Positions 46,616 through 48,543 of a stretch of DNA of 64,000 nucleotides are shown here, in pieces (positions within the stretch are counted from its first letter, which is position 1; the number at the start of each line of letters is the position of its first letter). A program made the translations under genes and the position numbers. Source of the stretch: Roseibacillus sp. (GTDB taxonomy: Bacteria > Verrucomicrobiota > Verrucomicrobiia > Verrucomicrobiales > Akkermansiaceae); assembly GCA_022448985.1 (NCBI GenBank), contig JAKVCR010000044.1:1-64000 (forward strand), written 5' to 3'. Under the pieces are notes generated by a model, which saw nothing but the letters and a program-made list of their open reading frames with translations, searched no databases and had not been told where the DNA came from.

Positions 46616-47735
46616 ATGCCCGAATCTTCATTCAGCGACGACCTCCAGGCGCTCGACACCACGGCCCTCAAGAGCCGCTTGTCGGAACTCCGGAGGTATC
46701 TTTGACGTCCCTCAACTGGAGAAAACCATCGCCGGCATTGAGAAGAAGATGGAGGCCCCGGATTTCTGGAACGACCAGAACACCGCCCAGCAGACCGTCA
46801 GGGAGGCCAGCCGCCTCAAGGGCAAGCTGCATCCCTTTCTCAAGCTCGAAGAACGGCTCGAGAACGTGGAAGCCGGGATTGAACTGGCTCGCGAATTCGA
46901 CGATGCCGACTCGGCCAGGGAGGCCGCCGCCGAATTCAAGACCCTTAATGACGACATTGACTCCTTCGAGCTGGTGACCCTGCTCGATGGATCCACCGAT
47001 CCCAACAACGCCTACCTGTCCATTCAGGCGGGAGCCGGAGGCACGGAGGCCTTTGACTGGGCCCAGATGCTGCAACGGATGTACATGCGCTGGGCAGAGA
47101 GCCGGGGTTTCAAGGTTACTATCACCGACGAACAGGAAGGAGAGGGTGCTGGAATCTCAAGTGCATCCCTCAAGATCGAGGGCGAGTATGCCTACGGCTA
47201 CCTGAAGAACGAACGCGGGGTGCATCGGTTGGTGCGTATTTCTCCCTTCGACGCAGCCGGCAAGCGTCACACTTCATTCGTCGCCATCGACTGCACCCCG
47301 GAGATTTCCAACGACATCAATATCGAGATACCCGAGAGCGACGTCGAGGTGCAAACCACGCGCTCGGGCGGAAAGGGAGGGCAGAATGTCAACAAGGTGG
47401 AAACCGCGGTCATCCTGAAACACAAGCCCTCGAGCATCATCATTCGTTGCACCCAGGAGCGTTCCCAGCTGCGTAACCGCGAACTGGCCTGGGAACTCCT
47501 CAAGGCCAAACTCTACCAGATTGAGGAGGACAAGCAGAAAGCAGAAGCGGACCGAACCTACGGGGAAAAGGGTGAAATCGGATTCGGCAGCCAGATTCGC
47601 TCGTATGTCTTCCAACCCTACCAGATGGTCAAGGATCTCCGCACAGGCCACGAAACTGGAAACATCCAGGCCGTCATGGACGGGGACCTCGATGGCTTCA
47701 TCGAGGCCATGCTCCGCGGCAGGGAAAGGTCCTGA
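46616..47735 (+). CDS. prfB: Peptide chain release factor 2, programmed +1 frameshift
   Basis: Recognises UGA and UAA stop codons. The gene is in two frames: 29 codons from the ATG at 46616 to an in-frame TGA at 46703-46705, then the +1 frame from GAC at 46704. The fused product, 372 aa, matches RF2 length. The slippery site CTT-TGA-C is preceded by an SD-like GGAGG and TAT, the same layout as in Escherichia. The fused text reads [20 protein letters not shown]. The SPF anticodon-like motif ([14 protein letters not shown]) and the GGQ motif ([17 protein letters not shown]) are both visible. The frameshift lets RF2 control its own level. Confidence 0.96.
46692..46706 (+). promoter_or_regulatory. 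RF2 recoding site
   Basis: GGAGG (46692-46696), TAT, CTT (46700-46702), TGA (46703-46705), C. The SD-like element ends three bases before CTT, the spacing known to force the +1 shift. Slow UGA recognition at low RF2 favours the shift and so more RF2. Confidence 0.93.
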
Positions 47736-47790: not shown

Positions 47791-48372
47791 ATGAAACGAT
47801 TTTGCTGCCTCCTGATGGTTCTCGCCTGCCCTGCCCTTGCAGATGTGGAATGGCGAAGCTTTGAGAATGCGGACAAGACCAAGTCCTTCCAGGGGCGCCT
47901 GGTCGGATACGATCCCGCCCGGAAAAAGGTCACCGTGCAGAAAAAAACCACCTTACGCCCGGTCACCTTCAACGTGGCCCTGCTTTCCGACGAACACCGC
48001 AAGTTCGTGGAAAAGCGCGCCGTGGAGCTGGAAGCAGCCGGCGGCCTGCGTATGATGTTCTACCAGACGATCGATAAAACCGGAACCAGCCGCAGCGGGA
48101 ATACCCGGACGAGCAGCTATAACGGCGGCTATAAGATCGAAATAAGAAACTTCCTGCGGAGAGCCATTCAGGATGTGTCGGTGGACTACATCGTCATCTA
48201 CCGAAAGGACTCGACAAAAGGTAATGGAACAAGAGCTGTGAAGAGAGGGTCCAAGGATCTTACCGCGCTGATCCCAAACTACGACGAGAACATTGTCATC
48301 GATGGCATTCCACTCACAAGCTACTACAAGGCTGGCTCCGTCACTGTCAGCGGTGCAGCAGGCTCCACATGA
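47791..48372 (+). CDS. Secreted SHD1-like protein, interrupted by in-frame TGA
   Basis: 193 aa to the TGA at 48370-48372, with a signal peptide (MKRFCCLLMVLACPALA). Residues about 19-75 resemble the SHD1-type domain common in PVC secreted proteins (VEWRSFENADKTKSFQGRL, VALLSDEHRKFV). A beta-sandwich-like segment follows (GYKIEIRNFLRRAIQDVSV). The reading frame does not end naturally: in the same frame, 56 further codons continue to TAG at 48541-48543 with normal codon use. The interrupted full length would be 250 aa. Either this is a pseudogene-like nonsense mutation, a sequencing error, or UGA recoding. Function unknown. Confidence 0.75.
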   Translation: MKRFCCLLMVLACPALADVEWRSFENADKTKSFQGRLVGYDPARKKVTVQKKTTLRPVTFNVALLSDEHRKFVEKRAVELEAAGGLRMMFYQTIDKTGTSRSGNTRTSSYNGGYKIEIRNFLRRAIQDVSVDYIVIYRKDSTKGNGTRAVKRGSKDLTALIPNYDENIVIDGIPLTSYYKAGSVTVSGAAGST

Positions 48373-48543
48373 TGTCGAGGAGGTGGCGCGGTCAGCGCCA
48401 CGAGATCACAGCGCAGCCGCGATGCCCTCATCGGATGCATTGCCCAGATCAAGGTTGGCGGCAAGGTGGTGAAAACCGAGGCGTCCAGTGCCGATGTCCT
48501 TCGCCAGTACAGCGATGCCTTCGGAGGATCTGAGTCCAGGTAG
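48373..48543 (+). pseudogene. In-frame continuation of the SHD1-like gene beyond TGA
   Basis: 56 codons in the same frame, starting Cys-Arg-Gly-Gly-Gly and containing SRDALIGCIAQIKVGGKVVK followed by TEASSADVLRQY, then TAG. The sequence looks like two beta strands and a helix that would complete the fold, and third codon positions are mostly G or C as in neighbouring genes. It has no start codon of its own with a good ribosome site. This shows the TGA interrupts a once-continuous gene. Confidence 0.7.
48383..48401 (+). promoter_or_regulatory. SECIS-like hairpin downstream of the in-frame TGA
   Basis: GTGGCGC (48383-48389), loop GGTCA (48390-48394), GCGCCAC (48395-48401): a perfect 7-bp stem. 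The loop starts 17 nt after the TGA and begins GG followed by U. This meets the general bacterial SECIS description (short loop with early G, about 16-37 nt from UGA). It lacks the bulged U of the Escherichia fdhF element. It may be chance or residual coding constraint. Confidence 0.35.

Follow-up and report, generated by a model that had tools for sequence, protein, structure and literature searches.

An in-frame UGA and a covarying bSECIS-type hairpin point to a selenoprotein family, predicted to be exported, in an order of Verrucomicrobiota

In selenoproteins of the SelB/bSECIS type, such as FdhF and SelD, an in-frame UGA is followed 16–37 nt downstream by a hairpin with a G in the first two loop positions, and selA, selB, selC and selD are encoded by the genome. 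The published bSECIS model describes this hairpin by a loop of 3–9 nt, a stem of 4–16 bp, a G in the first two loop positions, a spacing of 16–37 nt and an MFE of −7.5 or lower (PMC13188914). Some selenoproteins of the May 2026 inventory, for example SaoC, SaoL, HgcA, MbdU and KCU-star, have CU or UC motifs and hence a vicinal Sec/Cys pair. Here we describe a gene which shares these features with FdhF and SelD and whose product has a putative vicinal Sec/Cys pair as well. It lies in the window, by which we mean the whole 64,000-nt stretch of Roseibacillus sp. DNA that was analysed.

The interrupted reading frame and its conservation

An ORF of 193 aa starts at 47791 on the + strand and ends at the TGA 48370–48372. 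Past this triplet the same frame stays open for another 56 codons and closes at the TAG 48541–48543, which gives a form of 250 residues and bears out the TGA-interrupted frame that a preliminary description had placed at 47791–48543. The features of the gene are as follows.

47791–48543, + strand: candidate selenoprotein gene of 250 residues, Sec at codon 194, stop TAG 48541–48543 (open frame with TGA taken as Sec; full-length alignment of homologues)
47791–47841, + strand: predicted signal peptide MKRFCCLLMVLACPALA, for export (read directly from the sequence, which begins with basic residues and has a hydrophobic core and an A-x-A site, all of which relatives keep)
47842–48042, + strand: N-terminal beta-rich SH3-like domain (profile positions 2–75 matched elsewhere in the source genome and in relatives; weakly resembles the SH3 domain at the C terminus of RimP)
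48043–48369, + strand: second domain as far as the Gly/Ser-rich loop preceding Sec, a probable beta-sandwich (family conservation; strands seen in a low-confidence model only)
48370–48372, + strand: TGA codon for a putative selenocysteine at residue 194 (homologous loci keep it in the same alignment column; some genomes that lack Sec genes have Cys there)
48373–48375, + strand: Cys codon adjoining Sec, predicted selenenylsulfide partner (Sec-Cys, Cys-Sec, Sec-Sec or Cys-Cys in homologues)
48383–48401, + strand: putative bSECIS hairpin, stem 48383–48389 with 48395–48401, loop GGTCA at 48390–48394 (agrees with the bSECIS model, is more stable than nearly all synonymous recodings, shows compensatory change at every pair)
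48402–48540, + strand: C-terminal part of the second domain, RSRDALIGCIAQIKVGGKVVKTEASSADVLRQY, with a strand pair and a helix (family conservation; dN/dS about 0.06 in genus-level copies)

The in-frame TGA is present in 10 of 10 close orthologues from the genus-level group and at 61 of the 70 loci examined across the order, distant homologues included. Of the 97 genomes searched in the GTDB family, 26 have it at this place in the loop; they belong to many genera, and their copies range in identity from 90% down to about 24%. A profile search of 289 genomes found the TGA form in four further families of the order. TGA was seen in no match outside the order in a phylum sample of 388 genomes. 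With a narrower profile, the matches among relatives were Roseibacillus and Akkermansiaceae MAGs of the phylum Verrucomicrobiota; no plasmid copies of the gene were found. Alignment of homologues across the TGA position, which the preliminary description had recommended, showed TGA kept or Cys in its place.

Because the window comes from a MAG, the TGA might be an error of sequencing, or the gene might be in decay and have acquired it lately by a nonsense change from CGA; this change from CGA (Arg) had indeed been put forward as the simplest alternative. However, the identical TGA stands in many species and genera whose genomes were assembled independently, and Arg occupies the site in no homologue examined. 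Moreover, constraint past the TGA is as strong as ahead of it: the median dN/dS in nine genus-level copies was 0.059 after the TGA vs 0.09 before, ratios that are rough because synonymous sites are close to saturated in many of the pairs. The conserved coding region thus continues past the in-frame UGA, and to judge from a dN/dS of about 0.06 its downstream part is under strong purifying selection, which refutes the decaying-gene option of the preliminary description. Conservation and dN/dS together led us to reject both sequencing error and decay, whose chance we consider negligible.

The putative bSECIS hairpin and the selenocysteine machinery

The hairpin at 48383–48401 is just as it was first described: a perfect 7-bp stem (gtggcgc/gcgccac) with the loop GGTCA. 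It begins 10 nt past the TGA, and 17 nt separate the TGA from the loop. With a loop of 5 nt, a stem of 7 bp, GG at the loop start, a spacing of 17 nt and −13.4 kcal/mol, it fits the published model, as a SECIS check proposed at the outset was meant to establish. The missing bulged U17, formerly an objection to selenocysteine, is no part of the general bSECIS model (PMC13188914). In the window, counting both strands, a model-type hairpin of equal stability follows 14 of the 1953 TGA triplets, and among window TGAs that are preceded by at least 80 open codons and followed by at least 40, this is the sole credible hairpin with a GGTC, AGTT or GGTT loop; two other long-frame TGAs have weaker hairpins, in frames resembling shadows of other genes. 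When the codons downstream were recoded synonymously, an equally stable hairpin arose in only 1.3% of cases. The window hairpin is more than chance.

Across the family, 65 of 67 TGAs are followed by a model-type hairpin, in 54 cases at −7.5 kcal/mol or lower, and 58 of the 67 beat 95% of synonymous recodings, a test that is independent of the choice of register. Among 33 distinct hairpins, 91.7% of cells were paired and 8 of 8 pairs had changed on both sides. The covariation score was 0.995, vs 0.262 for shuffled and at most 0.18 for slid alignments, but since the register of each sequence was set by the loop rule and best pairing, the score is inflated and 0.995 is an upper bound; with the same qualification as to register, the structure is conserved by compensatory change. 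In L036/L046 (L and G numbers denote loci and genomes), a Gly codon has changed to an Ala codon and a synonymous change in an Arg codon makes up for it, so that the hairpin pair is restored, and compensatory change even reaches into the loop, where a G–C pair becomes A–U (GGUC to AGUU). One A–C mismatch is present in the hairpin of L025/L027.

Two individual loci may be mentioned here. Compared with the other genus-level copies, L026 (G037) has the loop AGTTA for GGTCA with the stem unchanged, a natural G–C to A–U change within the presumed SelB-binding loop. In L107 (G052:C1:408500-409500), a GGTC hairpin with a 9-bp stem lies 45 nt past the TGA, outside 16–37 nt and with another hairpin between, and is possibly a displaced SECIS.

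The source genome, G000, is a 4.6-Mb MAG, 96.9% complete and 5.57% contaminated, in which the window is contig C230. The search for selA, selB, selC and selD that had been called for found all of them: selA (E 5.5e-122), selB (E 3.4e-90, over the curated cut-off), a tRNA-Sec with anticodon TCA, and two selD copies, L048 (G000:C163) and L049 (G000:C249), each with one in-frame TGA. Given 5.6% contamination, the double selD possibly reflects a strain mixture. In L049 the TGA lies within a CAGU motif and the SECIS loop contains GGTC, as does that of the window hairpin. We considered whether the sel genes as a whole might derive from a contaminant, which is unlikely because selA is present in 11 of 11 genus-level genomes and the selA, selB and tRNA-Sec loci have a GC content near that of the window.

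The downstream frame is coding, and it would also be conserved if the UGA were read through by a normal near-cognate tRNA for Trp, Cys or Arg, with the hairpin as a readthrough stimulator and not a SECIS. Against this, the TGA forms track the Sec machinery. In the GTDB family SelA was found in 26/26 genomes with TGA vs 48/97 overall (Fisher P = 1e-10) and in the order in 44/46 vs 96/289 (P = 1e-22), P-values that are descriptive since related genomes are non-independent samples. As to the two exceptions in the order, both selB and tRNA-Sec were found in G100, while G277 is a MAG of 54% completeness, so that TGA forms are confined to genomes with selenocysteine genes, bar this one incomplete MAG. 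Moreover, some genomes without the machinery have Cys instead of TGA, and the loop matches both the bSECIS model and the selD SECIS of the same genome. Hence near-cognate readthrough appears very improbable.

The sequence itself shows that the UGA is conserved, that the hairpin covaries, that the Sec machinery is complete and that coding constraint continues past the UGA. From this we infer actual Sec insertion: the UGA at 48370 very probably encodes selenocysteine. The preliminary description had listed a selenoprotein as one hedged option among others, and it now gains support from the sel genes, from TGA or Cys in the homologues and from a hairpin that both fits and covaries. In the proposed mechanism, SelB with Sec-tRNA(Sec) would bind the hairpin 48383–48401, the UGA would be read as selenocysteine, and the 56 codons past it would complete the second domain. 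UGA recoding generally competes with RF2 termination (PMC4513850), and this competition could serve as a selenium-responsive switch in which termination at the UGA gives a 193-residue form, good selenium supply gives the full form, and both products matter. We regard such a switch as improbable, because the 193-residue form would be without the strands that complete the second domain, and its sequence bears no sign of a separate role.

The predicted Sec/Cys pair across the order

The predicted selenocysteine sits in a Gly-rich loop and is usually paired with Cys or with a second Sec. The loop patterns include UC, CU, UU, CxxxU, U-x4-C, two separate Secs, CC, C..C, CPxC and none. Two points formerly held against selenocysteine, a Cys directly after the UGA and a linker-like location, are on this evidence properties of the family, since the adjacent Cys is a family feature and the Gly-rich loop houses the Sec/Cys pair throughout. 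Two in-frame TGAs occur side by side in L035 of G066 (UU) and 6–10 codons apart in L071 (G100), L074/L076/L077, L112 and L129. L140 has Ser in place of the Cys next to Sec.

Cys homologues at the Sec position were also found. L045 is a Cys-Cys form, and L070, with C..C and in a genome without selA or selB over the cut-off, is sister to L071, which has U..U. The Cys form does not require loss of the machinery, because G024 has the Cys-Cys form and retains the Sec machinery. The paralogues L043, L044, L134 and L135 have neither Sec nor Cys in the loop and keep the flanking domains, so that the pair is not essential to every member. In a tree of the 70 loci, whose root is not known, the Sec label changes four times and the 61 Sec rows are spread over the tree, for which several losses from a Sec-bearing ancestor would be the simplest reading.

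Architecture, possible roles and comparison with known selenoproteins

The protein is predicted to be exported, and the product outside the cytoplasm would consist of the SH3-like N-terminal domain and the probable beta-sandwich domain once the signal peptide had directed it there. The N-terminal domain also occurs apart from the family, in other proteins of the source genome and relatives. It had been labelled SHD1-like, but Pfam SHD1 (PF03983) was seen in 1 of 23 members at E 0.18, not over the gathering score; a better though weak hint is the RimP C-terminal domain, of SH3-like fold, which gave a weak Pfam match in 8 of the 23 (best E 0.00097). An AlphaFold2 model from 13 close sequences reached a pLDDT of 48, and because of this poor model the beta-sandwich assignment of the second domain is tentative. 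A search for a solved structure of a relative gave nothing beyond a chance-level match.

Conservation of the gene neighbourhood ends with the genus-level group, where the upstream neighbour is the following.

46749–47735, + strand: main frame of prfB, the gene for release factor 2 (adjacent in the genus-level group only)

This prfB keeps the classic programmed +1 frameshift (46643–46780; CTT TGA C after ..RRY), and two TGA recoding events of different kinds, in prfB and in the putative selenoprotein gene, thus lie about 1.7 kb apart. We considered a link to prfB, but since it is the upstream neighbour in the genus-level group only, we take its presence there to be incidental.

The Sec/Cys pair in the Gly-rich loop most likely forms a selenenylsulfide and may act outside the cytoplasm as a thiol/selenol redox site. 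The motif is compatible with this role, to which, by analogy, we give an even chance. The main functional rival is metal binding. On this reading the protein would be a selenoprotein but no redox catalyst: its pair would serve chiefly as a ligand for a metal ion (for instance Hg, Cu or Ag), or else the protein would be an exported selenium/thiol sink. The free spacing of the two chalcogens (from UC, CU and UU to CxxxU, U-x4-C and two separate Secs) is what a flexible ligand loop might display, and some known CU-motif selenoproteins are listed as metal-binding (PMC13188914). However, the alignment shows no further conserved His or Cys ligands, and a neighbourhood that changes beyond the genus-level group provides no metal context. 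We consider metal binding or a sink less likely than not.

No relevant family match was found in Pfam or NCBIfam 20.0 (June 2026), the latter including the models cited for SaoC, SaoL, HgcA, MbdU and KCU-star, and no sequence match to a catalogued selenoprotein family was obtained. The inventory of 119 families of May 2026 (PMC13188914) has no corresponding entry, a comparison that for GOS_A and the families without models was made by table entry, and our literature search found no paper tying selenoproteins to the family of this gene or to its genus. It appears, then, that this is an uncatalogued selenoprotein family across a whole order of Verrucomicrobiota, of which an unnamed member annotated in GenBank may exist. 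Standard annotation would stop the gene at the UGA and so leave the family truncated. Its recognition would add a selenoprotein family common in this order and a selenium-dependent function, probably extracytoplasmic, for these marine bacteria.

Compared with known systems, the hairpin has the same GGUC loop as selD of its own genome, whereas the protein is unrelated to FdhF and SelD, is predicted to be exported, and showed no thioredoxin fold or molybdopterin domain. Unlike in SaoC, SaoL, HgcA, MbdU and KCU-star, the pair here lies in an internal Gly-rich loop and its spacing varies within the family. We tentatively propose, at slightly less than an even chance, a lineage-wide family of exported selenoproteins whose fold is not that of thioredoxin. 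In one flexible loop of these proteins the Sec/Cys pair would shift in position, order and number, and a covarying SECIS would be kept each time. If this is true, the family would represent extracytoplasmic dichalcogenide proteins of a new type. The family also provides naturally occurring variants in the position of Sec and Cys, together with the matching SECIS loops (GGUC, AGUU), on which recognition by SelB and the advantage of Sec over Cys could be tested.
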